In this document: in pieces, positions 11,663-43,628 of the stretch
Numbering within the stretch: the first letter of the stretch is position 1
Layout of the letters: each line of letters opens with the position of its first letter
Assembly (NCBI GenBank): GCA_963969495.1
Contig: OZ018333.1
Span: forward strand, 90,821,865 to 90,885,864
DNA from: Ceratothoa steindachneri
Taxonomy: Eukaryota; Arthropoda; Malacostraca; Isopoda; Cymothoidae
Reading direction: 5' to 3'
DNA length: 64,000 nucleotides
Made by a program: the position numbers and the translations under genes
Notes under the pieces: generated by a model
Databases searched by the model: none
Told to the model about the DNA's origin: nothing
What the model saw: only the letters and a program-made list of their open reading frames with translations

Positions 11663-12895
11663 TTATTTATCACCAGTGTGGGTTCTTAAATGTACAACAA
11701 GATTGTCCTTCCTCTGACCCTGATAAGGGCAAAGACTGCATTTGAAAGGCTTCTCACCTGTGTGAGTAAGTGAATGCCTCTGAACTAGTCCTTTCTTTGC
11801 AGCCTGATAGGGACAAATGCTGCATTTAAAAGGCTTCTCGCCTGAGTGAGTAAATAAATGGCTTTTAAGATTACCTATTGTTGCAGTCAGATAAGGGCAA
11901 AGGTCACATTTGAAAGGCTTAACACCAGTGTGGGTTCTTAAATGTGCTACAAGATTGTGCTTTCTCTGACCCTGATAAGGGCAAAGACTGCATTTAAACG
12001 GCTTCTCACCTGTGTGAGTATATGAATGGCTTTTAAGCTGACCTTTACTTGCAGCTTGGTAAGGGCAAAGGCTGCATTTGAAAGGCTTCTCTCCTGTGTG
12101 AGTCCTTGCATGTATTCTAACATCTCGTTTCGTTACAGCCTGATAAGAACAAAGGCTGCATTTGATAGGCTTCTCATCTGTGTGAATATATGAATGGTTT
12201 TTAAGATAAACTTTCGTTGCAGCCTGATAAGGGCAAAGACTGCATTTGAAAGGCTTCTCTCCTGTGTGAGTCCTTGCATGTATTCTAACATCTCGTTTCG
12301 CTACAGCCTGATAAGAACAAAGGTTGCATTTGAAAGGCTTCTCATCCGTGTGAGTATATGAATGGTTTTTAAGATGAACTTGCGTTGCAGCCTGATAAGG
12401 GCAAAGACTGCATTTGAAAGGCTTCTTACTTGTGTGAGTATATGAATGGCTTTTAAGATGATCTTTCCTTGCAGCTTGGTAAGGGCAAACGCTGCATTTG
12501 AAAGGCTTCTCATCTATGTGAGTAAGTGAATGGCTCTGAACTTGTACTTTCTTTGCAGCCTGATAGGGGCAAATGCTACATTCGAAAGGTTTCTCACCTG
12601 AGTAAGTATATGAATTGTTTTTAAGATGAACTTTCGTGGCAGCTTGATAAGGGCAAAGGTCGCATTTGGGATGCTTCTCTCCTGTGTGAGTCCTTGCATG
12701 TCTTCTAGCATCTGTTTTTGTTACAAATTGATAAGGGCAAACGTTGCATTTGAACGGCTTTTCACCAGTGTGATTATATGAATGTATCTTAATATCTTTT
12801 ATGGCAGCCTGATTAGGGCAAAGGGCTTGAGGTGGTGATATCATACCACTAAATTGTGGAATAACCTTAAGGTTACTGGACGAACCCAATTTCAT
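11663..12895 (-). CDS. C2H2 zinc-finger protein, terminal exon (fingers 0-13)
   Basis: This 411-codon exon, stop included, encodes a tandem array of C2H2 fingers (C-x2-C-x12-H-x3-H) joined by TGEKPFKC-type linkers, so a sequence-specific DNA-binding nuclear protein is expected. I count 14 units. Twelve have all four ligands. The first lacks its first Cys, and the third has both His replaced (N and Y). The second position of most units reads C-P-Y-Q-A. A two-finger block is duplicated: fingers 5-6 and 7-8 are nearly the same. The exon starts directly after a strong acceptor (pyrimidine tract plus TTTTCAG, rc of 12,896-12,910), and its first codon happens to be ATG. That favours an internal exon entered in phase 0 over a true start, and four phase-0 exons lie upstream at 28.7-34.9 kb. 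An AATAAA overlaps the stop codon (11,667-11,662). The array itself is certain. The linkage to the upstream exons is inferred. Confidence 0.92.
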   Translation of the reverse strand: MKLGSSSNLKVIPQFSGMISPPQALCPNQAAIKDIKIHSYNHTGEKPFKCNVCPYQFVTKTDARRHARTHTGEKHPKCDLCPYQAATKVHLKNNSYTYSGEKPFECSICPYQAAKKVQVQSHSLTHIDEKPFKCSVCPYQAARKDHLKSHSYTHTSKKPFKCSLCPYQAATQVHLKNHSYTHTDEKPFKCNLCSYQAVAKRDVRIHARTHTGEKPFKCSLCPYQAATKVYLKNHSYIHTDEKPIKCSLCSYQAVTKRDVRIHARTHTGEKPFKCSLCPYQAASKGQLKSHSYTHTGEKPFKCSLCPYQGQRKHNLVAHLRTHTGVKPFKCDLCPYLTATIGNLKSHLFTHSGEKPFKCSICPYQAAKKGLVQRHSLTHTGEKPFKCSLCPYQGQRKDNLVVHLRTHTGDK

Positions 12896-13683
12896 CTGAA
12901 AAGGAAAAAAATAGAAATTTTAAAATCTCTCGTTCACGATCTTTATGGTGTACAAGAGAGCATATCTGCAATAGGAAGAAAGGGTATGGACCCCACCCAT
13001 CCCAAATTCCTTCTTTAGGACTCCCACCTCATTATGACCTCAACAACGTGATATTATAACCTGAGGCATTCCGCATCGGACACCCACAAATTTCGTAGAC
13101 AAAGGGATAAGAAGAGCCGAAAGAACGAAGGGATTCCAAAAGATCTAGAATCAGTATGGATAATAAAATTGTGAAAAGTAGAAATAAGGCGGAAATTTAA
13201 AAGAATGTGATAATTCAACAGTCAAATAGAGGATATCATATGCAAGGTTAGCTGCAGTGATGACTGATACACCACTGATGCGCTAAAATTGCGCCTCGAC
13301 TTTGTATGGATTGAGAATGGGATCTATTTTTTTAATTGGTGGTCAAAACCGAGGGCATGATCACTGAGACATGTTTCAGAAAGAAAAACCAGAGTTGAAC
13401 ACGGTCACCGGATCCTTTTTGAACATCCCATATTCCTCTATATATGTTGGAAGAGAGGACCAATAGGTTAGACATATTAATGGAAGAGAGCGCACGGCAG
13501 GGGCACAAACACGATATATGGTCACCTTTTCTGTGTCCTACAGGTTTGGCGATAGAGTGTAGCCTATCAGAGAGCGCTGGTGAGGAAATTGCAAAAGGGA
13601 GTGAGTTGTATGGCCAAAATGATGGTAGTAATAGCATCTCTGCAGCAGTGGCACGAATGCCTTCAAGCAGTAGCGATACCATA
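12896..13683 (-). other. Intron of the zinc-finger gene with a small family A ORF1 fragment
   Basis: Intronic sequence upstream of the finger exon. At about 13,600-13,683 the minus strand encodes a decayed version of the family A zinc-knuckle entry (KAFVPLLQRCYYYHHFGH), in which the second knuckle Cys is now Tyr. The rest shows nothing recognisable. Confidence 0.5.
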
Positions 13684-16600
13684 TTTTTTTCTTTTTGGAG
13701 CCCATCAGGCGACTGACTGCTTGGGCATAAGTCGCCGTAAACTACACAACTTACTACTAGGCTATATTAAGAAACAAATAAAAATATGTAAATAATAAAT
13801 AACAACGCTAAAAAGGACAAGAGCTTAAAAAATATATAAAAGAAAACAAAGCAAAAACCAAGAAGGAGACCCGCTCCGGGTCCCCCCAGCGCAGGAACAT
13901 GCAACCTTAAAAAAAACAACAGTCAAATAAAGGGGAAGAAGCTGGCCTCATCCAAAAAATCGTAAAGTCCACAAGTCAGTGCGCACGAAACAGACCCGAT
14001 ACGGGGAGTGGTAATGTGCACGAAGATCGCCGAGATTGGGACAACGCAGTCTTCACAGTATGGCGCAGGAGTTGTGTCCCGCGAGTGTGTCCAATTCGGA
14101 GATGACAGAAAGCAACCCTAAGCCGTTGCGGCATTGGGGGGTAGGTCCATAGGAACAGTTGCGGCGCAATGGCACGCAACTTTAAGTTACCCTCGACCGT
14201 CCCCCATCTTCTTTGCTAAGCAGCCCGCATTCCTGCCATGTAATGGGTGTGAGGAAGAGCGAAACACTAGTATGGTCAGCCCAGTCTTCGAGGACTCTTT
14301 GTCGCCCTCATTCCCCGCAATTCCTACATGTCCAGGAACCCAAAACAAGATAATATCGACATCCGCCCGGCACGCCAAAACGGTGGCGTCACGGATATCG
14401 CGAAGCAGGGGATGGAGTAAACTTCCGTACTGAGTGGTGTATTGCCACCAGCTCGGCAATAAAGACAGGCGCAGAACCTGGCAGAGCCCAACTGACTTCA
14501 AACAGAGGGAATACGTTGTGGAGCCCACCCCGCTCTTGGGACTTAGGGCCATCAGTATACACCGTCGCGGTTCCAGCGTGACAAAAAGTATGCTCCAAAA
14601 ACACAATACTCCCACTGTTGTAGAAGCTTTGTGAGCATAAGCGTGGCGACAAATGGTCAACGGTGGTGCACCCCTAGGATAGCGCCATGGGCAGAACCAA
14701 AGACACCGCCGGCCAGAGAGTTATAGGGAGCTCCCAGAGGCGTTTTCTGGCCCTAAACACGAAGGGCCTAGGGTATAAATGGCGTCTATCGGCGGCAGAC
14801 CAACCGGTGACATCATCTGGGAATGCAGTGAGAGCTGGAGGCACTGGGATCACGCGTGGCGAATAATGAACTGTGCATGGCGCTGAGGGAGTGGCATCTC
14901 CCCAACGTCAACAAGTAGGCTCTCAATGGGGAAAGTGTGGAAGGTATCGGTCGCCAGGCGAAGGCAGGTGTGGTAGATCGACTCCACCTTCCGCAATACA
15001 CGCTCGGCTGCTGATGCCTAAAACTCACATCCGTTGTCGAACTTCGAACGAACAAAGGATCGATAAAAAGTGAGGCATCAGTCACGGAACGAAGAATATC
15101 CATGGCGCGGGTAGAAGAGACCAAAAGGCTGCGAATATGAGCCTCCCAGGTGAGACGTCGATCAAATGAAAGACCAAGGAAACGGTGCGATTCAACCACT
15201 TCCAGGCGCAACCCATTTAGAAACGAGTCTGGGTCAGGGTGGAACCGTGGTTGGCGGCAGAAGTGCACCACCTTAGTCTTGGCAAAGGAAAACCAAGACC
15301 TGTGCGCTTCAGAATTGTGAGAGACGTGGTTCAATGCCTGTTGGAGTCGACGTTCAAAAGTTGGTATCTGGGCAGCGCCAAAAGAGATCGAAAGGTCGTC
15401 CACGTAGAGCGTAGTGAGAATATCATCCGGCAACACCGATGTGATGCCGTTGATGCCCAGTGCAAAGAGTGTGACACTGAGGACACTTTCCTGCGGAACA
15501 CCCTCTTCTTGCTCCATTGGGCCGGAGAGCCCCCCCCCCCACCCGTACGAGGAATCGACGATCTCACAAAATTCAGATATAAACATTGGGAGGCGTCCCC
15601 TCGCCCCCATCGTGTGGAGAGTCTCCATGATACCGTATCGCCATGCGGTATCATAGGCCTTCTCCAGATCGAAAAACACCGTGGCGTAGTGCTGTCTACG
15701 AAGGAAGGCCTTGCAGACGGCATTTCCCAGTCGCAGCAGAGCATCTGACGTGGAGTGGAACTTGCGGAATACTGTGTAGAACACAGATTGGGCGGAAACT
15801 GGCAGGGGTAGAGTGATCTCTCCCCGGCTAGCGAAAAGCTAGCACAGTAGCGATTGCAAGGAATCTGGGAGGTTATCCTCTACCGAGATCCTGTTTAACA
15901 AATCTAACAGAAAGGCCATGTCTCGCTCACCAAGGTGTAGAAGAATCGTCTGGACCAGGTCAGGTGTCCACGGTCGAAGCAAGAGCAGAACGCAAATCAC
16001 TCACAGAAAACCTGTCGTTGAAGGGTTCTCCGCCTCTGGAGGTAAAGTCCAGTCGGCGGCTTTCGGCAACATCAAGACGTGCTTCGAATGCTAGCGGAGC
16101 AGCAGCCCGGCTAGAGAATGCGGAAAAAGCGGTCGCGAAGGATTCCGCGACAGAAGCGGGATCCGAGATTGCGCTCCCATTTTCCTGGAGAACAGGAAGG
16201 GGGTCCTGCGAGACCTTGCCCCTAATCTTTTTGACTCACTTCTACACCTCTGCTAGAAGGGTCTTCCAGTTAAGTGAAGACAAGTATGCCCGCCAAGAAA
16301 AGCGACAGGCGTGCTTCGAAATATAACGGAACCTAGCGCTAGCTCTATGAAATTAACAGATAATAAAATCGTTCGGCGGCGCTTATATCCCGTGTAGGTA
16401 TAACGCTTCTACTTGACGGCCGTCTCACACTCAGCTGACCACCACGGGAGTGGTCGGCGTGCAAAACGACCAGATCTTCTAGGAATAGTAGTTAGGCCCG
16501 CGGCGATGAGGTTGCCGGAGAAGAATTCAACAGCCTCATCAACCGACCTAAACTCCTCGACTGAGATAGAGAAATCAGTCATTTCCCAGAATGAAGACCA

Positions 16601-17205
16601 CCACGGCCGCGCCAACCACCACCGCGGCGGGCTCTCGGACGGCAGCGGCCCAGAAAATGAGAGTTGCATGGGAAAGTGATCCCTACCATGTAGGTCATCA
16701 TAAAGATAGATCGATATAGGAAAATGAAGCGGTTCTCGGGCAGTGATGCGTAAACTTATCCACATTTAGACACCTATCACCAGCTGCTCGATTAGGTCGT
16801 CAAGGAATCTACGCCTGGGAATAATCGTGAAGTCTCCCCAGAGCGGGTGTCTACGGTTCAAATCTCAGAGCAATAGAAAAGGCCTCGGCAACCTTGCCAC
16901 GACAGGGCGGAAGTCCCCGGCTTCAATATTTGCTGACGGTGGAATGTAGGGGAAATAAAAGTATAGCTCCTATCCAGGTGCAGCTGCCCAGCTACTGTCT
17001 GAAAGGAGGTATATAAAGCGAAGAGAAGAACGGAGACATCATGCCGGATATAAACTGCACTTACTCCCGCCCGTCTCCCAATTTCATGGTGATTGAGTCT
17101 CAAAAACCTCATATCCTGGGACGGTAGACACGGGGCACGCGCCCAGCATGGTCTTCTGAAAAAGATAGCTAACAGGGAACGGGGAGAGACGAGCCTCCGC
17201 AGCTT
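13684..17205 (-). mobile_element. LINE family A, copy A2 (5'-truncated in the endonuclease)
   Basis: Minus-strand non-LTR element. It contains an endonuclease remnant (17,205-16,858), the EN end with GRDHFPMQLSFSG (about 16,690), the linker PWWSAECETAV, the RT N-terminus (16,330-15,900), the RT palm and thumb (15,784-14,813), RNase H (14,660-14,187) and a 3'UTR ending in an A-rich tail at about 13,690. RT motifs are visible as FFDLEKAYDTAW (A), GVPQESVLSVTLF (B, with E for the usual G), LYVDDLSISF (C) and FLGLSFDRRLTW (E). The 5' end stops inside EN and abuts family B sequence, consistent with incomplete reverse transcription. Confidence 0.82.
14813..15784 (-). pseudogene. Family A ORF2: reverse-transcriptase palm/thumb, longest open piece
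   Basis: This 323-codon open segment is part of ORF2 of copy A2. The catalytic aspartates are present in motif A (FFDLEKAYD) and motif C (YVDD), so the polymerase core is readable here, unlike in copy A3. Motif B has GVPQES instead of the canonical GVPQGS. The C-terminal third leaves the expected thumb sequence after a frameshift near 15,030. The ATG is incidental. The true ORF2 start lay in the missing endonuclease region. Confidence 0.8.
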
Positions 17206-17209
17206 ATTA

Positions 17210-20030
17210 TTATTGTATCCGTAAGCAATGGAGAGGTGTAAAATTGCCAATGTTTAAAACACAAAGAAAGTCAGATAATGAAGAGACTAAAACACTGCCT
17301 TTGGCATTTCGAGTGATGTCAACCCAGTATGGGAGACGGGCATTAAAATCTCGTAGTAATAAGAATGGGGAGGGCAACTGGTTTATAAGTTCTAAAAAGT
17401 CGGGTCTTGACAATGATAAACAAGGAGATAGGTAAATAGAGCAAACGGTAAAAAGCTTAGTATGAAAAACCCTCACCGCAACAGCTTGGAGGATAGTATG
17501 TAGGGGGATGGGAGAAACATGGTGGGATGAAGATACCATGATTGACACCACACCCCATTAGATGGGCTTCCAGCAGGAGCCATACAGTTAAAAGTGAGAA
17601 AGCCGGGTACTCGCGTGCGGAAAGGGCCGTATACTCAGTTTATTCTCCTGAGGACAAATAACGGCGGGGTGGAGAATCGTCAAAAGAATTTTGAGTTCTT
17701 CCCACTTTGGAAGAACGCCTTGACAATTCCATTGTAAAATGGAAGATGTGTGGGACGGTTAGATACCACTGTGGATATCTTTTTCTCTTTTGTGGCCGAT
17801 ATTGTATTTGAGGTTCGTCCCAAAGAGCTTGGGAGACGGAGAGCAGATCTTGAGGAGCCTGCTTTTTCCTGGGGGCTGAGACCCTAGAGGGACCAGTAAA
17901 TGGGGCTCTTTTCGAGGTTTTTGGAGAACCGACCGAGGCCCTTGATTGTAATTCCGGCTCACAACCTGGCCGAAAAAGAAGAGCAAGAACGGATTTTCGG
18001 CCCATATATCCGGATTGATGGGTCGAGGGTATTTTCGGTCTCTGAGGAGTTGGTCCATCCGCCGCGATTTTGATGTTGGAGTATCATCTGCTTGCATCGG
18101 ATCATGGGTAGAAGGGTGAGTGGAACGAACAGGCGATCTGAGCGAGGTGTGTGGAGCTGGGTGTATATCTGCCATCGTTTGGATCAGGATGGGGCCTAAG
18201 TCCTGTGAAGGGCGGGACGGACTTAAGTGAATAGAATGTTCAGCCATCGGGGAAGACTCCATTGAAGATTCTCGGGGTTCGGTCGAGTCAGTTCCAGAGG
18301 CTGCCCGCTTATTGGTGGTCGATGAGCCAGGTGAGGAATCCTTTCTCTTACCACTGGGCTTTGGGTCTCGGAGTCGGGTGGATGAACCTTCACTGGTCGA
18401 TGTCGAGGATTCTTTCAAATAGCATCTGTTGTCTTCAAGCGTCTCTCCCAGCAAGAGCTGTTGGAGAGAGGGGAGCTACATTGGTTATCTCGGTGTGAGA
18501 GCGATGCTTCAGCTGCATATCCTGAATGTTTCCGACGCTGCGAGTAGATGTAGGATGAAGTGCTTCAGGCTGGTCGGAACTCGAGCGTGATGGTCGGTTT
18601 CGTCCAGCGTCACGTAAAACGTCAGAGAAGAGCCTGCTGAGTGGCGATGTTTGTGCTCGAGCACGCTGGCGGGCATCTCTTATATCTAGATGTAGAGATT
18701 CGTGAAAAGCGAGCACCTCCTTTCCATATAAAAATATAGAGCAGAGTTTTGACGCAGCACTGTATGTACTTCCGCATTTGGCACAGCGAGGTATTTTGGT
18801 GCATTCTGGGCATGGTAGTAAGAGTTACAATTCACGCAGGAGCGTGGGTGCCGACAGGCACGGCCAACATGTCCAAATTAATTGAAATTGAAGCAGCGTC
18901 TGGGTAGTTCGATGTAGGGACTTACCGGGACACGAAGGTACCCAGCTTTAATATAATGCGGCAGTTCTTGTCGTTCGAATGTTAAAATCAGTCTGGCGGT
19001 TGGGACTCTAGTGGCGCCTAATGTTAAGTTACCCTGTGTACGTGTGTGACACATTGGGTACTAAGTTACTCTGAAGGCGGGTGGGGTCGTAGTCCTTTAG
19101 TTCGTTTGAACGGATGATAACTTTGACGAAATTCAGACGCGGATGGGGCGAGACAGTTATTGGAATTTCAGCTATCGAAGATAGATTTCGCACAAGGTTG
19201 AGTTGTTTTGAGAGTGGGATGACACCTCGACTACGACATCACCATTACCTCTTGACCACATCCGGCGGGGTTCACCACAGCGGGACTCAAAAGATTCATT
19301 GACGTCAAACACATCGACTTTTGCAAGTGGGATGTCAGATGATAAATTCATGACAAGAAAGCAAGGATAATCAAGATCTGGGTCTACTTTGTTGGAATAG
19401 GGGTCCAACGAGCGAGGGAAGGCTGAAAGGGGAGCTAAGGAGCATTTGGCACGAGAACCCTTACGAGAAGGGAAAGTTTTTGGTTTATGGCTAGCCATTG
19501 CAAAAAGAAGAAAAACTGCGCATTCTCCCTCGGGACTCCCCACCATGGAGGCCTACAAGGTCCCGGCACTGCTGCAACTCTACAAACAGTTACGTCCGGT
19601 ATGTCCTTTTAAAGAATGGATACGGATCCACCACACCATCTTTAGAAACCTAAGAGGCTGCCCGAATTCTCCTACGCACGGAGAAAAGGGGCCAACGATG
19701 GGTTTCTCCTTGGGCATTCGGCAGACGAAGGCGGTGGAGATGCTGAGCCTCTTCCACCTTCATGAAAGAACAATTCGGGATCAATCCATAAGAAGAGCAG
19801 AGATCGGGTATCCATAAGGACCACTAGATAGGTGAAGGAAGAGGGGGAAATAAAGGGCAGTGGAAGAACGTAATAGGGGGGGTGGGAAAGAAAGAGGGGC
19901 ATGTTAAAAGTCTTGTTGGCAGCACCATGAGACCTCTAAGGGACCCAGGGCTGACCCCCTTCGCCATGAGAATGCCAGTCTCTCTCTGGGAACAACCCTT
20001 GAAGAAAAGATACCAGAGAGGGAGGGGGTA
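17210..20030 (-). mobile_element. LINE family B, copy B2: 5'UTR, ORF1 (gag) and start of ORF2
   Basis: Minus strand. The purine-rich 5'UTR spans about 20,030-19,500. ORF1 begins at 19,498 (MASHKPKTFPSRKG…) and runs with frameshifts to about 17,640. CCHC-type knuckle residues are readable in broken frame at 18,900-18,780 (RCFNFN…FGH…C and SCVNC). The endonuclease start is at 17,551-17,210 and includes LPSPFLLLRDFNARLPYW, with the catalytic DFNA block present but R for the usual G before it. The downstream part is cut by copy A2. RNA-binding gag plus EN plus RNase H (copy B3) fits the I/Jockey superfamily. Confidence 0.72.
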
Positions 20031-20036
20031 TTATTA

Positions 20037-20612
20037 TTGATGAATCTTCATCTGATTTTAGTGATGAAGAATCAAACAACATAGGTACTGTACTTCTAAA
20101 CAATAAACAACGTAGCAGCAATGATAGCATAGCAAATGTTTCTCAATGTTTGAAAGGTAAGGATGGTTTTTCTTGGCAGTTTGAAGTTCTATCTCACCAT
20201 GCATGTGACCGTTTCCCGCAATATAATGTGCTAAAATTTCAGTCAGGCCCTACCACATACGCTACAACACGAGTAATCAGAGATAGTCCTCTTCCTTCCT
20301 TTAGAATTTTGTTCAATGAGTCAATACTTGGAAATATTCAGAACTGTACAATTGACGAGGGTCAGAGTTTCTGGCAACAAAGACTGGTCTGTTAGTTTAG
20401 ATGAATTAGAAAAATTTATTGGTCATATAATTGTTAGTGGCGTTATTGGGGGAAGAATCTAACATATCAAAAGTATATGGAATTGCTCTTGAGGATGCCC
20501 TTTGTTCAGTAAAATTATGACCCGCAATAGATTTCTGTAAATAATGAAATGTATCCACTTTGATAAAAAATGTGAGAGGAAAAGGAATCTGGTTCAAAAT
20601 AAGTTTTGCTTA
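20037..20612 (+). mobile_element. piggyBac transposase, N-terminal part
   Basis: Plus-strand remnant. The acidic N-terminus (IIDESSSDFSDEES) is followed, with frameshifts and stops, by the piggyBac core start (SLDELEKFIGHIIVSGVI, GGR, NRF). In this family that region precedes the DDE catalytic domain. The sequence breaks at 20,612, where a family C LINE 3' tail begins, and resumes at about 27,535. I see no terminal inverted repeat on this side. Confidence 0.75.
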
Positions 20613-20807
20613 ACATAACATAACATAATTTCACGGATGACAAAAGCCACAAGGGCCTATCAAAGGTCATCGGCATCTGTCAAAACCCACCCACAAAATG
20701 CATCCATAGGATTGTGTCTGATTATGCATCTACAATATACAATTCAAACCATACACAAGAATGTGTCAAAAAAAAAGGGCATCAGAAATCCAGACTCGTC
20801 AAAATCC
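20612..20807 (-). mobile_element. LINE family C (CR1/L2-like) 3' end, left half (copy C4)
   Basis: Minus strand 3'UTR of family C, ending in (TTATG)n, seen here as CATAACATAACATAA. It is preceded by the family's 3' hairpin (GGATGAC…GTCATCC type, 20,634-20,676). It continues at 27,147 after interruption by copy A3. The 12 bases 20,796-20,807 are one copy of A3's target-site duplication. Confidence 0.85.
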
Positions 20808-21018
20808 TTTTTTTTTAAGGGGGTATCTGGCGACTGCCCACTTAGGCATAAGTCGACGTAAACAAACAGCCTAGTTCTAGGCTACTTTAAAAAATTTGAA
20901 CAGGAAACAACAATAAAAAGAAATAACAATAACAAAAGAATAACAAAAACAACAACTAAACCTGGTTAAATGAAAGGGAGAAGGCCGGGCTCCCCCAAAA
21001 AGTCCTTAAGTCCACCAG

Positions 21019-21924
21019 TCAATGTGCACGCACTCGTCCCGAGTACAAAGGACAGGCGGTAGCGACTCCGCCTATCCTGGTACCGGGACAGGTAACGTGC
21101 GCGAAGATCACCCAGACTGGGACATTCGACAAGAATGTGCCGAACAGTCTGGGGGACGACGCAGGCGAGTGCTCAATCAAATAGCGATGCGTAACACGAG
21201 TGTGTCCGATTCGGAGACGACAGAAAGCGACCTGCAGCCGTCGCGGCATTGGGGGATAGGTCCATGGGAACAGTCGCGGCGCAATGGCACGCAACTTTAA
21301 GTTCCCTTCGACCGTCTCCCATCTTCTTTGCCAATAAGTCCGAAGAGCTGCCCGTATTCCTGCCATGTAGTCGGTGTGAGGAAGAGCGAAACGCTGGTCC
21401 GGTCGCAGAGTCCTCGCGGACTCTTTGGCGCGCTCATTCCCCGAAATTCCTACATGTCCAGAAACCCAGCAGAAGATAATCTCGACATCTGCCCGGCTCG
21501 CCATAACCGTGGCGTCACTGATATCAAGAATCAGGGGATGCGGAGATTCCAATGCCCCGAGAGCACTCAGGGCGCCTTGTGAGTTGATATAGATCACAAT
21601 CCGGTCTCCGAACCGGGCACGTCGCGTGATCTCCCGTACCGAGTGGTGTATTGCCACCAGCTCGGCCGTGAAGACAGACGCAGCGCCCGGTAGAGCCCAG
21701 CTGACTTCAAAAAGAGGGGATACGGCGTGGAAGCCGACCCCCTCTTCGGACTTGGAGCCATCCGTATACACTGGCACGGTTCCAGCGTGACACGATGTGT
21801 GCTCCAAAAAGGTCAAACGCAATACTCCCGGCACCGTACAAGCTTTGGAAGCAGAGGCGTGGCGACAAATAGCCAAATGTGGTACCCTCCAGGGTGGCGT
21901 CCTGGGCAGAACCGGGGGCGCCAC
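21019..21924 (-). pseudogene. Family A ORF2: RNase H domain and Cys/His tail
   Basis: 301-codon open piece. RNase H motifs: VYTDGSKSEEGVG (first Asp), FTAELVAIHHS (Glu), IVIYINSQGALSAL (canonical IYTDSQGAL, so the third acidic residue is Asn) and GHVGISGNERAKESA (the usual Asp of NERAD is absent). Two of four catalytic residues are therefore lost in this copy. After RNase H the sequence RLRIGHTRVTH, typical of the C-terminus of I/Jockey-type ORF2, is followed by a short Cys-bearing tail. Confidence 0.82.
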
Positions 21925-24875: not shown

Positions 24876-26525
24876 CTAAACGGCCAGGATTTCCTTATCA
24901 AGAAGATATACACCACATTGCTTCGAAGAAGCAGGGTGCGGCTCTCCGCAATTGACACACTTGGCCACACACGATTTGGACTTATCGTGTGCGGCCTTGG
25001 AGCAATTTACACAAACTTCGGGTGACCCCGACTTTGCACGTCGACAGGAGCGATTAGTATGGCCGAAGCGGTGACAGTAATAGCACCGCCGTGGCAGTGG
25101 CACGAATGCCTTCACGCGGTAGCGGTACCAACCGGCACGCACCGACTCAGGGAGCTTGTCACAGTCAAACGTGACAAAGAGTGTAGGGGTGGGTCTCGAG
25201 GCCCCTCCCTGTTTTCTCATCACACATTCGAACTTGACCGCCCCATGGTCGGCCAGCTCTAGGGTGATGTCCTCCATGTAGTAGTTCACAAGTTCCCTCG
25301 CATAAACTACTCCTTTCACAAAGTTCATGGTAGAGTGCGGCGTCACACACACCGGGGTGCCATGAAGTGTCCGAAGAGCACTTATCTTGGCCGCCTCGGC
25401 GGGATTCGCCGCATTCGCCAGAAGGCTCCCGTCCGAGAAACGGGTAACCTTGGCCTCTCTACCAATTGCACTAGCTAATCCTCTCCTCTGATGGATCATG
25501 TTGCCCTTGGCCAACATGGTGCCAACAGTGGAGCGAATAACGAAGAAGCGTTTGAAGCCAGCGGGCTCGAAAACGCCATGTAACCTATGAATAAGGGGCC
25601 CCGATGTCATCGAGGCTCCACCCTGTGCACTTTTAGTTTTAGTCAGTGGCTCCGCAACCGGAGGGGCAGAGGGGCCGGATGTGCCGATCTTGGCTTGGTC
25701 GCTTGCCAAAGTGGCAGCAGACCCATCAGACCCCGTAGCCCCCGCGGGTGGAGAGGAGCCCCAAGTCTTCCTAGTCTTTGTCTTTTTCGTCTTTTTCTTT
25801 TTTGGAGAGGAGGGAGGGGAATAAACCCGCTTCTCACCTCCGCCGGCAGAAGCCCCCATGCCAGATGGACCGGCCTCAACCAGGTCCCTCTCCGAAATGG
25901 AGAAGGTCCTGGTAGTCGTAGGGGCACCTGTAAGAGGAGATCCCTCCCCTCCTTGTACTGCCTCAGGGCCCTCAGCCGTTTGAGGAGGCCCTTGCATAGG
26001 GGCAGATTTGGGTTCGGTGCTTGGCGCCGAGCCCAGATTCAGCCCCATGTAAGTCCCTACCGTCTGAGGCTGGGTTTCCTCAAGAACCATGTCTATCACA
26101 GGAGGGGCCTCCAGTTGGCCATCCCCTCCCAGGACATCGAAAGTTTCCTTGGTAGTGTCGCCAGTCTTGTGTGGGAAGGCACAGGCCTTGACCCCGGCAA
26201 GGTTTAATATTCTTGCCAGCAGGTCTTTTGAGGGAAGCGACTGAAGGGGCCTGGCTTCCCTCTCTTCCCTAAGGGGGTTTGCCCTACCGAGCCGCTTACA
26301 CGAGGGGCGGTCGGCAATGGGCTGCCTGCTGGCTTTCTTGGCAGTCCCCTTAGAAAGAAAAGGAGGGATTCCTGCTGGAAATAGGGAGGTGCCCGAAAGC
26401 ACCTCCAGAGAAGGGGGTGAGGGGGAGTTCCCTTCACCCGTAGGCGTAGGAGAGGAGTAAGCCTCCTCTCCGGTTAAAGAAATATGGAGGGTACCCTGCG
26501 CAAGCACAGGGGAGGAGACCTCCAT
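24876..26525 (-). CDS. LINE family A ORF1: gag-like protein with three zinc knuckles
   Basis: 549 residues. The N-terminal 330 are Pro/Ser-rich and probably disordered, with a Lys-rich patch (KKKKTKKTKTRK) near residue 240. A folded region follows (about 340-480), and then the C-terminal array CYYCHRFGHTNRSC, CVNCSKAAHDKSKSC and CVNCGEPHPASSKQC. These are CCHC-type knuckles that in this protein family bind element RNA. The frame ends at a TAG (24,876-24,878) where the equivalent of copy A4 reads Gln. The same frame stays open to 24,609, so the ancestral protein was about 90 residues longer. The start at 26,525 is the first Met in frame. Copy A1 has an alternative N-terminus further upstream. 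Confidence 0.85.
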   Translation of the reverse strand: MEVSSPVLAQGTLHISLTGEEAYSSPTPTGEGNSPSPPSLEVLSGTSLFPAGIPPFLSKGTAKKASRQPIADRPSCKRLGRANPLREEREARPLQSLPSKDLLARILNLAGVKACAFPHKTGDTTKETFDVLGGDGQLEAPPVIDMVLEETQPQTVGTYMGLNLGSAPSTEPKSAPMQGPPQTAEGPEAVQGGEGSPLTGAPTTTRTFSISERDLVEAGPSGMGASAGGGEKRVYSPPSSPKKKKTKKTKTRKTWGSSPPAGATGSDGSAATLASDQAKIGTSGPSAPPVAEPLTKTKSAQGGASMTSGPLIHRLHGVFEPAGFKRFFVIRSTVGTMLAKGNMIHQRRGLASAIGREAKVTRFSDGSLLANAANPAEAAKISALRTLHGTPVCVTPHSTMNFVKGVVYARELVNYYMEDITLELADHGAVKFECVMRKQGGASRPTPTLFVTFDCDKLPESVRAGWYRYRVKAFVPLPRRCYYCHRFGHTNRSCRRAKSGSPEVCVNCSKAAHDKSKSCVAKCVNCGEPHPASSKQCGVYLLDKEILAV

Positions 26526-27146
26526 TTTTTCGGTGGAGCTGCCCGAGAGCGGTTCCGTCGATGAGCAAGGGGGAATTAGGGGTTGTTTTTTTTTACATCA
26601 TTGGGCATGGTGACCCTAAATTTTCTGCGGGACGCAATAGCTCACCACCTCTCACAGTTACCCGCACTGCAAGAGGTGCTTACAGGCCTGGCAGAGCCAG
26701 GCGCCGCCATTTGTGACCACCCCTCCCGCCTGGTGGCCTGGTGGCCTGGCAGTCCATCAGCATAGTGGCTCCACCTTGAACACAGCGTAAAAGGATAGAT
26801 TGTGAAGAGGAAAGGAAAAGGATGTGAGCAAGGTATGGGTGGGGATGAAGCAGGTTGTTAAAAAAAACAACATCCCAAACCGGAGCTCAGGGGTCAGGGA
26901 ACGTTGTCCCCTCCCCCCTCAGACCCGATCTGGGACGGTTGGCTTGAGAAGAAGGTCAGCATCTACCCTGTGAAATTAGAGGCTGACCAGAGAAAGTTGT
27001 GGGAGAGGTATGAAAAGCGAGGAAACATGTGTTTTGAAGGAAGGAAGGAGAAGAGGCTAAGCTGGGGTCGGACAGGGTGCTGAGTCCCGTCAGCACGGCG
27101 GCCAAGATGGCAAATCGCTGCGCCTCTTACGGGGTCGTCAAAATCC

Positions 27147-27534
27147 AAATCAATTGTAATATACAATAATAAATAACTGCATCCACAGGAATGGGTCCAG
27201 AATACCCCCAAAAATTAACCCTCCCTTCCCATATAATTATCTAATCTGCGTTTGAAAACATTCAAGTTTAGACAGTCTACCATCTCAGATGGCAAACTAT
27301 TTTAGTAATCGACCACTGTATTTTTAAGTGGTGACCCCTAGTCCTATTACTACCTTCCAACTTAAACAACTTGCTAAAATCCAACTTATCCATCCCAGAG
27401 CAGATTTTTAAAAGCTCAATCATATCTCCCCTCACACATCTTCTCCCAAATGTGAACATATTTAGGACCCTCAGTCTATCTTCATATTCAAGGTGCTTCA
27501 AAGAAGGTATTATTTCTGTTGCCCTCCTTTATAT
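27147..27534 (-). mobile_element. LINE family C, copy C4, right half (RT thumb)
   Basis: Minus-strand continuation of the family C copy that starts at 20,612. It has the 3'UTR with CTGCATCCACAGGAAT on the plus strand, then the ORF2 C-terminus (YEDRLRVLNMFTFGRRCVRG, KLDFSKLFKLEGSNRTRG). The copy is 5'-truncated at about 27,534, where piggyBac sequence resumes. The complete copy would be about 580 bp. Confidence 0.82.
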
Positions 27535-28005
27535 GGACTCTAGCATCAGAAATATGGATCCATTCATTCAAAACTGCCAGAAAGCATTTCCTGCAGCACA
27601 TATTACAGTTGATGAACAATTACTGCCATGCAAAGCACGTTGCAAATTCATACAGTATATACCAAATAAACCAGACAAATTTGGCTTGAAATTCTGGATG
27701 GCCGTCGGTGTTGAAAACAAGTATTTGTTCAAGGGAATTTTATATGTGCAAAGAAGTAACGATGTTAGTGTGCCTAAAAGTGTAGTCCTAAAACTGATGG
27801 CTCCTCTATTAAAAAAGGCTACAATGTCAATTGTGATAATTATTTTACTTCTTTAGGCCTTTGTTGGAACAATTCACCAGAACAGAGAGAACTACCAGAA
27901 GTGGTAAGAAAGGTAAAACCAATGCATGAAACTCTGGTTTTGAAATCTACAGAGAAGCCTACGGTCACACTAAAATCACACCAGTGCAAAATCTTAATTT
28001 AATTC
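27535..28005 (+). mobile_element. piggyBac transposase, catalytic part
   Basis: Resumes the transposase broken at 20,612. DPFIQNCQKAFPAAHITVDE and QYIPNKPDKFGLKFWMAVG hold the first catalytic Asp block (TVDEQ) of the DDE domain. NCDNYFTSLGL at about 27,825-27,855 holds the second, in a shifted frame. The frame ends soon after TEKPTVTL, so the region of the third Asp and the C-terminal Cys-rich domain are missing. The element is inactive. Confidence 0.85.
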
Positions 28006-28686
28006 ATATTTGTTAAAATTATGAACATAAATATGAATTTTGAATAAAATAATGATAAGTAGCATTCATTTCTTGAAAAAAAAAAGAAAGTAATTTTGCA
28101 AAAACAAAACGAACCCAGATATTAAAAATTTCCCTTGAAAAAGCAAAAAAAAAACCCTGTTTTTTTTATTTATTCGCCAACCCTGTGGGTCAATGCTTGC
28201 GTGCTGTGGATCTGCGAGGATATGCTGCTCTACCGGATAGAACAGAAATGAAAGGGTTGTGTTTCTCCTCCAACTTTCAGTTGTAGCTAGGGTTTCTCCC
28301 CGAGCTACAACATCCGCCTTATTGCGGGTAGACAAAGAATTGATAAGATAGTAAAGAAGGAAAGATAGGTGCTGAGAGAGACAAAAAGGGGGGGGGGGGT
28401 GTACCAGTGTCCTCAGGCCTCATCAAAGAGTTCAAGTAAATCAGGTGAGTGGGGTCTTCCCTATTTGCACTCAGGCCTGGAGAACATACTGCTGATCCTC
28501 CAGGTACCAAGTGTAGCATATTTTAATCCTTATCTGGCATCTGTGCCAAGTGTATGTCTATACCCAATAAGTACCCCACTTTGGAAGCTTCTCAAATTGA
28601 TTGTAGATCAGTGGTAAACCACTTATCATTTAAAAACAAATATTAAAATGGGAAAATTGTGCCACTATAATATAGATTGTAATTAC
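28006..28686. other. Intronic interval, no gene
   Basis: Between piggyBac and exon 4 of the zinc-finger gene. It holds A- and T-runs (28,075-28,165), a G12-type tract near 28,390 and otherwise unassigned sequence. There is no recognisable TE core. Confidence 0.4.
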
Positions 28687-29140
28687 CTTTTCTTGGATGG
28701 AGTCTTGTTGCAACAACTTACTGGGTGTGTTTGGTAGAGAATTTACAGATTTTGTACATGGTCCATCAACATCAGGACAAGAGCCCGTCTCTGTATCAAA
28801 GAATTCTTCACTGATTTCTTCCTTCAATGAAATCTCTCCAAAGTCCTGCTTAAAGAAGTACAAAATTAAATTCCACGCAATGCAACCAGGATACGAGGTA
28901 ATAACCAATGTGACCAAATATTTTTCATGTCACTAATGGATATTGATCTTTTCATATTTTAAATACACATTATTAATAGCTTATTTTGGAGATATAGATA
29001 TGATCATTTTCATGTTAAAAGAATGAGTGATCCATCAGATTGTAAAGATTAGTGGGTGCAACTATCAGAAGTGTGCGTGTTGCTAATGGCTAAATAGCAG
29101 TGTCAAAAGTAAAGAGAGGAGACTGACTAAATAAGGAATG
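28640..29140 (-). repeat. Tandem segmental duplication, unit 1 (contains exon 4)
   Basis: This unit aligns with 30,530-30,965 not only over the exon but also over about 250 bases of upstream intron. Shared landmarks on the plus strand include AGATTGTAAAGATTAGTG (29,037 and 30,853 regions), the 'GAAGTG' run and the 'GACTGACTA/GATTGACTA' end. This shows duplication of a genomic segment rather than retroposition. Confidence 0.8.
28687..28845 (-). CDS. Zinc-finger gene, exon 4 (acidic, duplicated exon)
   Basis: 53 codons, phase 0 in and out. The acceptor is …TTTAAGCAG before GACTTTGG, and the donor is GAAAAG/GTAATT. It encodes an acidic, Ser/Pro-containing segment beginning DFGEISLKEEISEEFF, with no known fold. 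It is a clear paralogue of exon 3, 1.9 kb away, with the same splice sites. Acidic linker exons of this kind are usual upstream of finger arrays, and the same strand and phase fit splicing to the exon ending at 12,895. No homologous domain name can be given. Confidence 0.75.
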
Positions 29141-30530
29141 CCAAATGTACATTCAAGTAGAAAAAAGTTGCAATAACCAGTGTTAATTTGAGGAATTGGG
29201 TGATATTTTTGGTTGAATGGCAAAAAATCCAAATAGCTATAGTTGAGGGTGGTGTGGATGAATTGTTTGTATAGAGTGGTGAGAGGTTCCTTCTGATGTT
29301 CAAAATTAATGTTTGTTAGTGCGTGGGAGGACATTGATTTTCTTTGTGGCCTTGTTTGTAATGATTGTTGTGTGGGTTTTGAATGCCCTGTAGGTGTCCA
29401 GTGCTAAGAGGGTGGGTTTTTTGTATACTGGCAGGTGTTGTGAAATTAGTCTGAGTATGGGGTGTTTTTCGAATCATGGTAGTGTGGTATGAAAAGCAAT
29501 ACTGTTGATTTGTCTGTTGAGGCAGTCATGCAGTTTTGTGCCAGCCAGTGTGTCGCTATGGGTGTAGATCAATGAGTGATTGTGGGATGTCATGTGTGAA
29601 TAGGGGAATACTTGGTCTTTGGATGTGTGTGCTTTTGATTTTTTTTTATGGATTTGTCTGTGTTGGGAGGAAGCTAATGTTTGAGTAGTGTTTCATGCAG
29701 ATTTTACAGTTGTATTGGAGTTGTCATTTGGTAATTTCTTGTAACTCGTGAATCTTGTGTGAGAGCTGGGAAGTACATGTGTGAATTTTCTTAATGGTTC
29801 TACAGAGCTGAGTTTGTTTTGTGGTCGATTGTGTTGACATATTGTTCATTTTCTGCTTGTCGTTTCGTAATTAGGTTGGTGGTGTGAGTGTTGAGTAATT
29901 GTATATGTCATGGTTCTTGTGAGGGGGCTGTGTTTTGTTAGAGAATGTTTCTGTTTTATGCTGTCTGCTATTTCCTTTGCGAAATTGGGGTTATATGTTT
30001 ATCTTTGGCCATGAGGGATGAATTTACTGCTTGCAAGTGTGATAGTATTGGTAATGTAGTGTAGTGCTCGTCTAGCAGGGCTACTTATTTAAGGTAAAAT
30101 TGGGAACTTTGTCTTTTATGTATTATTGGGTGTAGTTTCTTCGGAAATCTAATTATTTCTTTGATAATATTTAAAATCTTTTAGTGGCTATTTTTAGATA
30201 TTTTAAAGCCTTTGAGGGATGCTTTATATTCAGATATACTAGTTAATACTTTTCAATTTGATGTTTTAATAACATTGCTAAATCACCTCAGGCCCTTCAT
30301 AAAATTCTTCAGTATGAATGGCTATGTACCCCCATCTAAAGATTACATTAGTCATGTTTTACTCTGAGTTTCCTAAAAGTGTCAATAAAAGGACAGTGGC
30401 AAAAAGTGGGGACTTTAGTCTAAAAGATGGGATGGGGGAGAGGTACTGTTTGCACAGCACTCCATTAAAAGGACATTCAAGCAAGCATGAGTAATAACAT
30501 TGGTGTGAAGCAAATAGGAAATAATGTTTG
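29140..30530. other. G/T-rich intronic interval, unassigned
   Basis: The plus strand is strikingly G/T-rich from about 29,335 to 30,080 (A/C-rich on the gene's own strand). The minus strand has fairly long open stretches broken by a few stops, which looks like a decayed TE coding region, but I recognise no motif. Confidence 0.35.
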
Positions 30531-30965
30531 CCATTATACAAATAAATTCAGTAAGAAAATAAAAATAACAGAGATTACCTTTTCTTGGTGGAATAACTCA
30601 CTTGTAGTGTTTGGTAGAGAGTTTTCAGATTTTGGACACAGTTCATCAAAAGTAAAAGAAGAACTTGTCTCTCTATGAAAGAATTCTTCACTAACTTCTT
30701 CCTTCAATGAAATCTCCCCAAAGTCCTGCTTGAAGAAGTACAAAATTTAATTCTTACAGAGCATCCAGAAATCACTGATGTGTTCTTTTCATACATCGAT
30801 ATTCAGGTTTTTAATGGCTTAATTTCGAGATTTAGATATGTTCACTTCCAGGAGATTGTAAAGATTAGTGTGTGTAGCTAGCAGAAGTGCACATGCTGAT
30901 AACAGCTAAATAGTGGTGCCAAATGTGATGATGGGAGATTGACTAGGGAATGACATCCTCAAGGG
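30530..30965 (-). repeat. Tandem segmental duplication, unit 2 (contains exon 3)
   Basis: Partner of 28,640-29,140 in the same orientation, about 1.9 kb away. The exon and flanking intron are both duplicated. The intervening sequence (29,140-30,530) is not duplicated. Confidence 0.8.
30579..30725 (-). CDS. Zinc-finger gene, exon 3 (acidic, duplicated exon)
   Basis: 49 codons, phase 0 at both ends. The acceptor is …CTTCAAGCAG, and the donor is GAAAAG/GTAATC. The product begins DFGEISLKEEVSEEFF and contains NSLPNTTSELFHQEK, closely parallel to exon 4. The reading frame is open and the differences from exon 4 are mostly conservative or in-frame length changes, as expected if both copies stay under coding constraint. 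Confidence 0.75.
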
Positions 30966-31084
30966 TTAAAACAGATAAAAAGATCTAGCAGATGACCCCA
31001 GCTACTAATGCTCTCTCATACAGTGTTATAGGGTAAAGAAACAAGATAAATAGAACCATTTTTCTACTGAAAAATGTTCTTTCC

Positions 31085-31192
31085 TAATACACCAAAAAAT
31101 CTGTTCAGGGATGAGGATCAAACTGAACACACTGAGGAGGCAAGCACCAATTTGATCTTAGTTAGAGCAATGCTTTAGACCACTCAGCTACA
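31085..31192 (-). mobile_element. tRNA-derived SINE copy 1
   Basis: The minus strand starts GTAGCTGAGTGGTCTAAAGC, which resembles a tRNA-Leu-type A box (TRGCnnAGTGG). It has a B-box-like GTTTGATCC about 60 bases on. The 3' part CATCCCTGAACAGATTTTTT is shared with the copy at 34,235-34,350. It lies in intron 2 of the zinc-finger gene, same strand. Confidence 0.6.
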
Positions 31193-31379
31193 TGTGAGGA
31201 GAAGAATTCTTACAAATAGACAGGCTTTTAAGACTTGCTTCCCGAGGTTAATTAGAAGGACCTTGAGAGAGAAATTAAATGGGAGCTCAATAGACAAACA
31301 AGAAATAGAGTTAAAGATGTGGCAAATGTACCTATATTTTATACATCTCATGGATGTGATTAAAAAAAGAAAAATTAAA

Positions 31380-34165
31380 GAACCCATCTGGCAACTTCGA
31401 ACTAGGGCAAATGTTGCTGTAATTAGCAGAAAGCCTAAGATTAGGCTATATTAAAAGAAAACAAGAACATAAAAAGGAAAACGACAATTCAAGCTAAAAA
31501 AACAAAAATTAAAAAGTAACAGGAATGAATCACTCCAGTGTTGGGGTATGCTAGGTTTCCCCGGACACAGGAATATGCAACCTACAACAGACTCAAATAA
31601 AAGGGAGGCCAACCTCCTCAAAAAAGTTGTATAGTCTGCAAGCCTGTATGCAAAAACTAGTCGTGAGGACAAGAGACAAAATGTAGTGACCCTGCTCATC
31701 CTGGCATCAGGACAGGTAATACGTACGAAGATCACCCAGACTGAGACATTAAACAAGAATGTGTAGAACAGTCTGGAGGACAATGACCACATCATTCCAC
31801 TCAATTCCTACATGTCCAGGAACTCAGCAGAAAATAATCTCAAAATCCACCTGGCTAGCCAAGTACAGGTAAACACGGATATCACATCCAGGGAGGTGGA
31901 GATTCCAATGCCCTGGGAGCACTCAGGGAGTTTTGTGAGTCGCTATGAATTACAATCCAGTCTCTGAACCGGACACATCAAGTTATCTCCTGTGCCGAGT
32001 GGTGTATTGCAACCAGCTCAGCCGTGAAGACAGATGCAGCAACTGATTTTAAACCTAAACCCAAACGTTTAGGGTGGGACTCGTGTCTCTCAGCGGTGTA
32101 AGTACCATTGAGATGAGCTGCAGATGCAATAAGATTTTTTTAGCGACTGAAGGAGTCACCGAGCTCACACATACAGGTGAATAATACACTATACACTGTG
32201 TAGAGCGGGTGGCATCTTCCAACCATCAACAAGTATGCTCTGAATGAGGGACATGAAGGCACGGGTTGCCAGGCAAATGATTGTATGATGGATCAAGTCC
32301 AGCTTCCGCAATACATGCGAGCTGTGGATGCATAAAACTCACATTTGTAGTTGAGCTTTGAACGAACAAAGATTCGATAAAAAAAGTAAGGCAGTAGCCC
32401 TATCAACGCCTAATGTACTGAACCTTGTGCAGAGAAAAATATCCATGGCACAGATACAATATCACCTAATGGTACCAATAGGAGCCTCCCAGGTGAGACA
32501 TCTATAAAATACAAGACCAAGGAAAAGGTGAGAGTCCACCACTTCTAGTCAAAACCCATTTAGAAACATGTTTGGGTCAGGGTGGAGCCATTGAGGGCAA
32601 CAGAAGTGGACCAACTTAGTCTTGGCTAAGGAAAACCAAAGCCTGTGTGCTTCGGCATAGCGACAGAGACAGCTCAATGCTTGTTAGAGTTGACATCTGC
32701 GCCACACCAAAAGAGATCGACAGTCATCCAAGAAAAGCATAGTGAGAACATCTTCCGGCAGGACCGAGGTGATGCCGTTGATGCTCAGGGCAAAGATGGT
32801 AACACTTCTGTGCAGGACCACCTTTTCCTGATCCATTGGCCCAGAGAGGGCTTCTCTAATCTGTAGGGGAAATCAAAGATCGCACAAAAATTCAGATATA
32901 ACGATTGGGAGGTGTCCCATTTCCCCAATCATGTTGAGAATCTCTATATAGGCATAAAGCTTTTGTTTGAGGGCAGTCTCACACTTGGCTAACCACAACA
33001 AAAGTGGTAGGCATGCAAAATGACCAGACATTCTAGGAATAGTAGTTAAGTCCACTGAAAAAAGGTTGCCGAAGAACTCAACAGCCTCATACAGCACCCT
33101 AAACTCCTCAACTAAGACGGATTTAACTAAATCAGTCATTTCTTGAAATGCTGATTAACACGCCTTAACCAAGCACCACCAATGTGGGAACGCAGTCGTC
33201 AGTAATCCAAAAAATATTTGAATGGGAAAGTGATCACTACCATGTAAGTCATGACTACCACCCACCCAAAATCTGGCTGTGGATCCAGAGAGGAGATAGA
33301 TAGATCAAGACAGCAAAATGAAGCTGTCCTCTGACAGTGAAGCGTAAACTCATCCAAGTCCCTAGCCTTGCAAAATGAGAGACTATCCTGGACCTGAATG
33401 GACAGAATTTCCTTTGTAGGGAGATATACACCACATTGCTTCAAAGAAGCAGGATGCAGTTATCCACAATTGACCACACACTAATTATCATGTTCAGTCT
33501 TGGAGCAACTTACACAGACTTTCGGTAACCCTGACTTTGCAAGTCTGAGTGATTTGTATGGAAGAAGAATTGGCTTCTGTACCACCTCTGCTTGGCTCAC
33601 TCCATGATGTCATCTATGGTCTAGTCCATGAGTTCCCTCATATAAACCACTCCTTTCATGACATTCAGGGTAGAGTGGGCGGTGTGACACTAAACGAGGT
33701 GCTATCAAGTTTCCAAAGGGCATTAGTAATCATGACCACCTTGGAAGTATTTTATACATTTGTCAGGAGGCTCCTGTGCAAAAGTAAAGGGTGACTGCTG
33801 GGACAGTGGCTACTTTAAGGGGCTATGACAATGGTAGAGGGGAAGGTAAAGGGGGAGTATTTAAATGAAAAACCTCATCATAGGGCACAGTGACCCTATT
33901 GTTTTCACAGGACTCAAACGCCAATCAACCCATGCAGCAACCAGCTCTGCATTTGGGACCACACCTCCTACCCAATGGCTAGACAGCCAATACCTAGTGA
34001 AATTAGAGGCTAACCAGAGAAAGTTGTAGGAGAGGTTGTAGGGAAAGTGAGGAAGCAGGATGTCAGAAAGAGGGAGGAGAGGCTAAGCTGAGGCCGAATG
34101 ATGCATCAAGTCCTGTCAGTATGGGGGCAGGAAAGGAAATCAATGTGACCCTTATGGAATAGATG
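31380..34165 (-). mobile_element. LINE family A, strongly decayed copy A4
   Basis: Minus-strand remnant within intron 2 of the zinc-finger gene. It holds the 3'UTR (31,380-31,640), the Cys/His tail and RNase H remnants (to about 32,100), the RT thumb and motif region (32,130-32,930), EN (33,140-33,350), the ORF1 C-terminus and zinc-knuckle remnant (33,350-33,790) and the 5'UTR (33,860-34,165). Large internal deletions are present: most of ORF1 and of the RT N-terminus are missing. Relative to A3, CpG sites are mostly TpG or CpA, which marks an older, formerly methylated copy. Confidence 0.78.
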
Positions 34166-34234
34166 AGAGAGAATGATTAACTAGAATGTGTCATACCATA
34201 AACAAATAAATACATGATTTTTTTGATGGAAATT

Positions 34235-34350
34235 TTTTCTTTATTACAAAAAAATTCATGCAGGGATAATGATTGAACCAAGAATGCTGAGAAGCAAGCA
34301 CCACTTTTATCTCAGTTAAAGCAGTGCCTTAGACCATATAGCTAGCTAGC
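34235..34350 (-). mobile_element. tRNA-derived SINE copy 2
   Basis: Same family as 31,085-31,192. The minus strand has TATGGTCTAAGGCACTGC, a B-box-like TTGGTTCAATC and then ATCCCTGCATGAATTTTTTT. The two copies bracket LINE copy A4 in the same intron. Confidence 0.6.
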
Positions 34351-34508
34351 ATCTGAACAAAAATTTTCATGAAATGGCTTTCAATAAAGGACTAGATAAA
34401 ATTCAACTCTCTCAACTTATTTCTCTTTAACCAACAATAGGTTGTTGTGTGATTAAGCTACCATAGGAACATCGCTAAATATTATAACAAGCACCACATT
34501 GTGACTAC

Positions 34509-34658
34509 CTCTTTGACTGGGCATTCTTTTAACAGTAATTCATTAGAACCATCAACCATTGCTGGTTCTTGACCTGTGATCAATTTTACTTCATTTCCAT
34601 GATCTGAATCAGACGACTCTTCCTTCATTTCTTTGATGGCAGTTTCTTTATAAATATC
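34509..34658 (-). CDS. Zinc-finger gene, exon 2
   Basis: 50 codons, phase 0 to phase 0. The acceptor is …TTTTATATTAG before GATATT, and the donor is AAAGAG/GTAGTC. The acidic, Ser/Asp-rich peptide starts DIYKETAIKEMKEESSDSD and ends KECPVKE. It has no recognised domain. The interval continues the acidic N-terminal region of exon 1 and keeps phase with exons 3 and 4. Confidence 0.7.
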
Positions 34659-34808
34659 CTAATATAAAAAATAGGTAATTTACTTTCTGTAACTATACAC
34701 AAGGAAAGATAAGTTAATCATTAGATAGGTAAAAGTATATTTACTAAAATGCATATAAAATAATGATGTTGAATGCCACTATATATAAGAAAATCCTGAG
34801 ATGCTTAC

Positions 34809-34893
34809 TTTTTTATTATCTAGATGAAAATTAAGTGGATATTCAATATCTTCCTCTTTCATTTCTTCCATTTTTGTAACACCTGAAGAAATC
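34809..34893 (-). CDS. Zinc-finger gene, first coding exon
   Basis: The 85-base exon has 22 noncoding bases and then ATG at 34,871 in a favourable context (A at -3, G at +4). It is followed by 21 codons starting MEEMKEEDIEYPLNFHLD and ends at AAA/GTAAGC. The acceptor …TTATTTGTTATAG at 34,894 implies a further noncoding 5' exon upstream, which I could not locate. Phase 0 at the donor matches exon 2. The promoter is not identifiable. Confidence 0.65.
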
Positions 34894-43455: not shown

Positions 43456-43474
43456 TTGGAAACTCAGCTACAAA

Positions 43475-43628
43475 ATGCATCCATATGATAGGTCAGATCA
43501 TACATCTACAAATAGAACCATCGACATGAATGCATCAAAAACAAAAGGCATCATCATCAAGAGACGTTAAAATCCAAATCAATCATAAATAGAATAAAAA
43601 AACTGCATTCACAGGAATGACTCCAGAG
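43475..43628 (-). mobile_element. LINE family C 3'UTR remnant (host of the next insertion)
   Basis: Minus-oriented family C 3' region up to ACTGCATTCACAGGAATG…CCAGAG. Its expected continuation (TAACCCTCCCTTCCCATATA) is found only after the insertion, at 44,207-44,266. Confidence 0.72.

Follow-up and report, generated by a model that had tools for sequence, protein, structure and literature searches.

Lineage-specific zinc-finger genes (ZNFs) are thought to repress mobile elements, and in KRAB-ZNFs, the front exons are followed by one exon that encodes all of the fingers. ZNF and retroelement copy numbers are correlated metazoan-wide, and zebrafish FiNZ-ZNFs show positive selection in 4 of 7 clades, with enrichment of that selection at base-contacting residues in two, according to the part of PMC10547256 available to us. 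The ZAD-ZNFs of insects are multi-finger transcription factors with fast turnover (PMC7655104, available part). The ZF271-like, or APEZ, proteins of Hemiptera carry many tandem C2H2 repeats and neither KRAB nor any other known domain; the criterion is 3 to 45 tandem fingers without other known domain, and the group combines fast diversification with varied exon structure (PMC6444547, in its available text). The same portion of that source describes aphid and Oncopeltus subfamilies with no domain besides the finger arrays, finds no correlation between the expansion of these genes within Hemiptera and repeat content, and states that insects possess no direct KAP-1 orthologue.

Here, we describe a locus of the isopod Ceratothoa steindachneri contained in a stretch of 64,000 nucleotides (contig OZ018333.1 of assembly GCA_963969495.1, positions 90,821,865 to 90,885,864), referred to below as the window. 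Most likely, this is an ordinary animal DNA-binding zinc-finger gene, the acidic front exons of which lie far from the finger exon because mobile elements have accumulated in the introns. On the best reading of the sequence, the gene is of a known kind rather than a new type of system, namely, a fast-evolving poly-C2H2 repressor that resembles the ZF271/APEZ class. As in that class (PMC6444547, available part), many tandem fingers (14 units) are accompanied by no other known domain: a Pfam search of the 173-aa N-terminus at E <= 0.001 yielded 0 families and hence neither KRAB nor ZAD. The locus differs from the class in its 173-aa acidic tail, encoded in small phase-0 exons, in a tandem exon duplication, and perhaps in the pentapeptide that links the fingers, a feature listed for the class, which here has the exact form TGEKP at just 5 of 13 junctions. 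The KRAB-ZNF and FiNZ-ZNF families (PMC10547256, available part) similarly possess a finger array with variable contacts amid abundant retroelements, but the N-terminus described here has no Pfam match and no detected homologue. The ZAD-ZNFs are comparable in their multiple fingers and fast turnover (PMC7655104, available part), and it is the lack of a ZAD in the N-terminus, at the same Pfam threshold, that sets this locus apart. The division into front exons and one finger exon resembles the KRAB-ZNF layout.

The gene probably is a host gene that consists of at least five minus-strand exons over 23 kb and encodes a DNA-binding protein. Its parts are as follows.

34809-34893, minus strand: exon 1, preceded by AG; donor GTAAGC
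34509-34658, minus strand: exon 2, acidic, 150 nt, 50 codons, phase 0-0; weak donor GTAGTC
30579-30725, minus strand: exon 3, acidic, 147 nt, 49 codons, phase 0-0; donor GTAATC; duplicate of exon 4
28687-28845, minus strand: exon 4, acidic, 159 nt, 53 codons, phase 0-0; donor GTAATT; duplicate of exon 3
11663-12895, minus strand: exon 5 (the finger exon), 1233 nt, 14 C2H2 units, 12 of them intact; stop codon TAA
11367-11424, minus strand: two AATAAA hexamers, 238 and 290 nt 3' of the stop codon

Rereading of the sequence bore out the five minus-strand segments delimited by the first-pass annotation, with AG before each and GT after the first four. The joined frame spans 583 codons plus a stop, from the ATG at 34871 to the TAA ending at 11663, with 0 stops or frameshifts, and its conceptual product of 583 aa comprises the acidic N-terminus of 173 aa and the 14 C2H2 units. 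The coding part of exon 1 consists of 21 codons, including 7 for D or E and 3 for K, and ends in phase 0; a second AG located between the acceptor and the ATG provides an alternative 5' end at 34882. The lengths of exons 2 to 5 are all divisible by 3, and exons 2, 3, and 4 are open in frame 0 alone. All boundaries had been claimed to be in phase 0, and this holds for the four internal junctions; the acceptor of exon 1, conversely, is no phase-0 coding junction because the 5' part of that exon is untranslated in the model.

The introns of the gene appear to have been enlarged by LINEs, SINE-like repeats, and a piggyBac element. The relevant features are listed here.

12896-28686, minus strand: intron 4, 15,791 nt, ~78% made up of repeats with further copies in the window
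30726-34508, minus strand: intron 2, ~57% LINE A fragments, plus two SINE-like 54-nt repeats
20808-27134, minus strand: LINE A copy inside LINE C, with a 12-bp target-site duplication (20796-20807 and 27135-27146)
27554-27820, plus strand: piggyBac-type transposase fragment (PF13843, E 1.9e-14), the matched part of an ORF at 27335-27853

Repeats were identified by self-comparison of the window, omitting matches shorter than 80 bp and matches starting in the finger exon; the coverage intervals were taken from the resulting list, minus the duplication of exons 3 and 4 described below and the pair 56191-56452/58259-58514, the members of which are 76% identical. By this measure, repeats cover ~51% of the window. 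The listed repeats include 0 exon bases and 0 of intron 3, partly by construction, given that the exon 3/4 duplication and the finger-exon matches were omitted. With letters assigned here after those of the first-pass annotation, LINE A occupies stretches at ~1.7 to 5.1, 13.6 to 17.2, 20.8 to 27.1, and 31.6 to 34.2 kb, LINE B lies at 9.0 to 10.6 and 17.9 to 20.0 kb, and LINE C is found around 20.6 to 20.8, 27.1 to 27.5, and 43 to 54 kb. The proposed nest of LINE A within LINE C within a piggyBac element is seen in part: the insertion of LINE A into LINE C is marked by the target-site duplication, and the piggyBac fragment adjoins it, whereas the ORF at ~20.0 to 20.4 kb, proposed to be the N-terminal half of the piggyBac, had no Pfam match. 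The piggyBac is likely the outermost layer. Large introns filled with transposable elements are common in animal genomes, so those described here are ordinary.

Several other repeats and ORFs were observed in the window. The two copies of the 54-nt repeat in intron 2 (31137-31190 and 34291-34344) are 81% alike, and we take the repeat to resemble part of a tRNA-derived SINE, given a likeness to leucine tRNA; a tRNA scan with ARAGORN and an Rfam scan were both empty. Within the LINE C cluster (43460-54559), presumably CR1-like, the identity between 46413-49013 and 50286-52928 is 76%, and an inverted match at 96% connects 50288-50675 with 52928-53318. ORFs at 36753-37301 (plus strand, 183 aa) and 37613-37972 (minus strand, 120 aa) had no Pfam match, the latter presumably resembling the end of a mariner-type transposase.

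The finger exon is the part of the gene with recognizable relatives. Its 14 units are 28 residues long, and 12 of them have all four ligands of the tandem C-x2-C-x12-H-x3-5-H pattern typical of the C2H2 family (zf-H2C2_2, E 1.2e-84), the first unit being without a Cys and the third without both His; 12 of the 13 unit junctions end in KP. A protein search with the fingers returned 7853 of 7925 scored proteins, and because the matches listed (120) span several animal phyla, at 26 to 52% identity, they single out no orthologue. Among solved structures, 208 sequences were matched, the best 60 of which come from known finger proteins, such as ZNF568, CTCF, and PRDM9, or from designed finger peptides.

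To describe variation among the fingers, pN/pS was pooled over 78 pairs of 13 aligned units, pairs that are not independent of each other. The ratio was 1.02 for the codons of helix positions -1, 2, 3, and 6 and 0.51 for the other 24 codons. By pN, the contact positions rank 69th among 10626 four-position sets, with the ligand positions left out; in contrast, the highest pN at any one position, 0.72, belongs to a non-contact residue between the two His. Two adjacent two-finger blocks (units 5-6 and 7-8 of the 13 aligned; 12421-12086, minus strand) share 96% DNA identity and differ by 1 synonymous and 6 nonsynonymous changes; the internal duplication therefore is recent. In these respects, the finger pattern resembles that of ZNFs in conflict with mobile elements. 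The array could instead belong to a decaying copy, that is, a recent pseudogene from a larger ZNF family that has lost translation. Such an origin would fit the 2 of 14 units without full ligands and the 8 of 13 junctions that deviate from TGEKP, and Oncopeltus is reported to have probable pseudogenes of the ZF271-like type (PMC6444547, available part). We consider it very unlikely, however: the 583 codons are free of stops and frameshifts, frame and splice sites are kept in both exons 3 and 4, and the non-contact finger codons show a pN/pS of 0.51, although selection in the past contributes to this ratio along with that in the present.

The splice sites of the five exons were compared with all AG and GT dinucleotides in the window using a generic animal splice matrix, not trained on the species; ranks accordingly weigh more than bits. 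The acceptor of the finger exon at 12,895, previously noted as strong, is in the right phase and ranks first among the 4143 minus-strand AGs, and those of exons 1 to 4 rank 24, 68, 142, and 110. The donors of exons 1 to 4 rank 84, 346, 85, and 39 among 3397 minus-strand GTs, that of exon 2 being the weakest.

The window was further filtered for open phase-0 segments of 120 to 201 nt between AG and GT, with site thresholds set near the weakest of the claimed exons. Nine minus-strand segments passed, along with 2 plus-strand segments that have a common acceptor (8 and 2 at slightly tighter thresholds). Three of the 9 minus-strand segments are acidic, and these are exons 2, 3, and 4; neither of the plus-strand segments is. 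First-order simulations (n = 20) gave a mean of 0.7 open segments and 0 acidic ones. At two looser settings, 5 of 25 and 6 of 63 minus-strand segments were acidic, all of them exons 2 to 4 or variants of their ends, with none among the 7 and 19 segments, respectively, that passed on the plus strand. Because the thresholds were taken from the claimed exons, this count is partly circular and should be regarded as supportive rather than independent. Moreover, the filter alone admits false positives, since some of the segments that pass it sit in LINE copies: among the 6 minus-strand segments other than the claimed exons, three fall inside LINE A copies, and another one overlaps a copy of LINE B. 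Those 6 of 9, obtained at thresholds derived from the claim itself, speak for the alternative that the acidic exons are open by chance and that the true 5' end of the gene lies elsewhere. Nevertheless, this explanation appears extremely unlikely, considering that every acidic segment belongs to the claimed set, with none on the plus strand or in the 20 simulations, and that exons 3 and 4 have retained their frame and sites through a duplication.

That duplication, absent from the first-pass annotation, makes exons 3 and 4 tandem copies with 65% protein identity over 48 residues. In the self-comparison, it reaches into the upstream intron (28703-29178 versus 30583-30997).

28846-29178, minus strand: part of the intron upstream of exon 4, included in the duplication of the exon; partner 30726-30997

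The two exons originated by tandem duplication of one cassette along with flanking intron. In each copy, the frame has stayed open and the two splice dinucleotides are intact. They differ at 25 of 147 exon positions (0.170), at 60 of 266 positions in the upstream intron (0.226), and at 36 of 103 in the downstream stretch; the difference between exon and upstream intron is not significant (Fisher P 0.20), and P is 0.03 when the downstream stretch is included. The exon alignment has 2 gaps (of 11 nt and 1 nt, a net 12 that keeps the frame), against 12 in the upstream intron and 10 downstream, with P of 0.15 for the gap count against the upstream intron alone and 0.03 against both flanks. The Nei-Gojobori Ka/Ks for the pair is 0.43, from 9 synonymous and 18 nonsynonymous changes, which are too few to decide, compared to 0.58 in reading frame 1. 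Because this ratio alone is too weak, the survival of frame and splice sites and the appearance of stops were also simulated, with the exon decaying neutrally at the upstream-intron rates over 20,000 runs and either copy as the ancestor. Both copies kept an open frame, splice dinucleotides, and a frame-preserving length in a fraction of 0.0141 of the runs with exon 3 as the ancestor and 0.0108 with exon 4, values that overstate the case somewhat because the two exons were chosen for being open. Together, these comparisons constitute moderate evidence that both exons are under coding constraint, without tying either to the fingers.

The acidic N-terminus has no detectable relatives: searches of ~5.8 billion proteins produced no homologue of residues 1-190 at E <= 0.001 (2213 candidates) and none of residues 66-173 at E <= 10 (267 candidates). 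The 173 aa contain 6 psiKx[ED] motifs, where 1.2 are expected, a count that was matched in a fraction of 0.0006 of 5000 shuffles and is inflated by the contribution of the exon duplication. For comparison, 10 C2H2 proteins, chiefly arthropod or unnamed entries, were fetched from the 120 listed finger relatives, and the region before the first finger was shuffled 2000 times in each. The motif is enriched in 5 of the 10 (matched in 0 to 17 of 2000 shuffles), namely, two proteins from Nilaparvata, two from Periplaneta, and one from Eumeta. The other five include one intermediate case (157/2000), one without enrichment (902/2000), and three that are motif-free, two of which have N-termini of just 26 and 18 residues. 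The tail of the isopod protein is probably unstructured and is predicted to be repressive in a SUMO-dependent manner.

Whether these exons belong with the fingers bears on the claim of a single gene. The coding exons, in the proposed order and on the proposed strand, are supported by the site ranks, the count of acidic segments, the retention of frame and sites through the exon 3/4 duplication, the first-ranked acceptor of the finger exon, and the AATAAA hexamers. The single transcript is the part of that claim that we infer, above all the 28,687/12,895 junction across 15.8 kb, on the basis of exon order and strand, the matching phase, the strength of the finger-exon acceptor, and the finding of no other finger exon in the window, where tblastn with the finger exon (E <= 1) gave one other match, at E 0.66. 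The finger exon opens with an ATG directly at its acceptor, and because of this, an unspliced start is possible. Two genes might accordingly be present, with exons 1 to 4 fronting another one, e.g., a paralogous or broken finger gene, and the finger exon using its own start. The position of the ATG, the 15.8 kb of mostly repeats between the two parts, and the failure of the searches with the acidic part to reveal a relative joining both all speak for two genes. Conversely, the acceptor of the finger exon ranks best on its strand and is in the right phase, the tblastn search gave just the one other match in the window, at E 0.66, and N-termini with KxE motifs precede the fingers in five of the fetched insect proteins. 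On balance, two genes are unlikely, and one gene with acidic front exons is the preferred model.

Under the one-gene model, the last exon alone would supply the tandem C2H2 fingers for reading DNA, and the short phase-0 exons would supply an acidic tail rich in SUMO-acceptor-type motifs (psi-K-x-E/D) that recruits co-repressors. The greater variation of contact residues than of the scaffold among units and the duplication of a two-finger block are as in lineage-specific ZNFs. Expression as one transcript, SUMOylation, repression, and the presence of particular targets are all predictions of this scheme. Exons 2 to 4 could even serve as effector cassettes that are interchangeable or exclude one another, allowing a single finger array to be produced with different SUMO-motif tails. 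This arrangement is suggested by their phase 0-0 boundaries, by lengths divisible by three, and by the diverged tandem pair of exons 3 and 4, and we consider it distinctly unlikely.

If the one-gene model is correct, repeat masking or the use of short windows could reduce the gene to its last exon, with loss of the effector part, which makes it a fair lesson for annotation. Should acidic cassettes recur before other finger arrays in the same genome, they would represent the effector module of a ZNF expansion. If, in addition, the cassettes prove to be interchangeable, they might provide a KRAB-independent means of tuning ZNF repression in a lineage rich in transposable elements.
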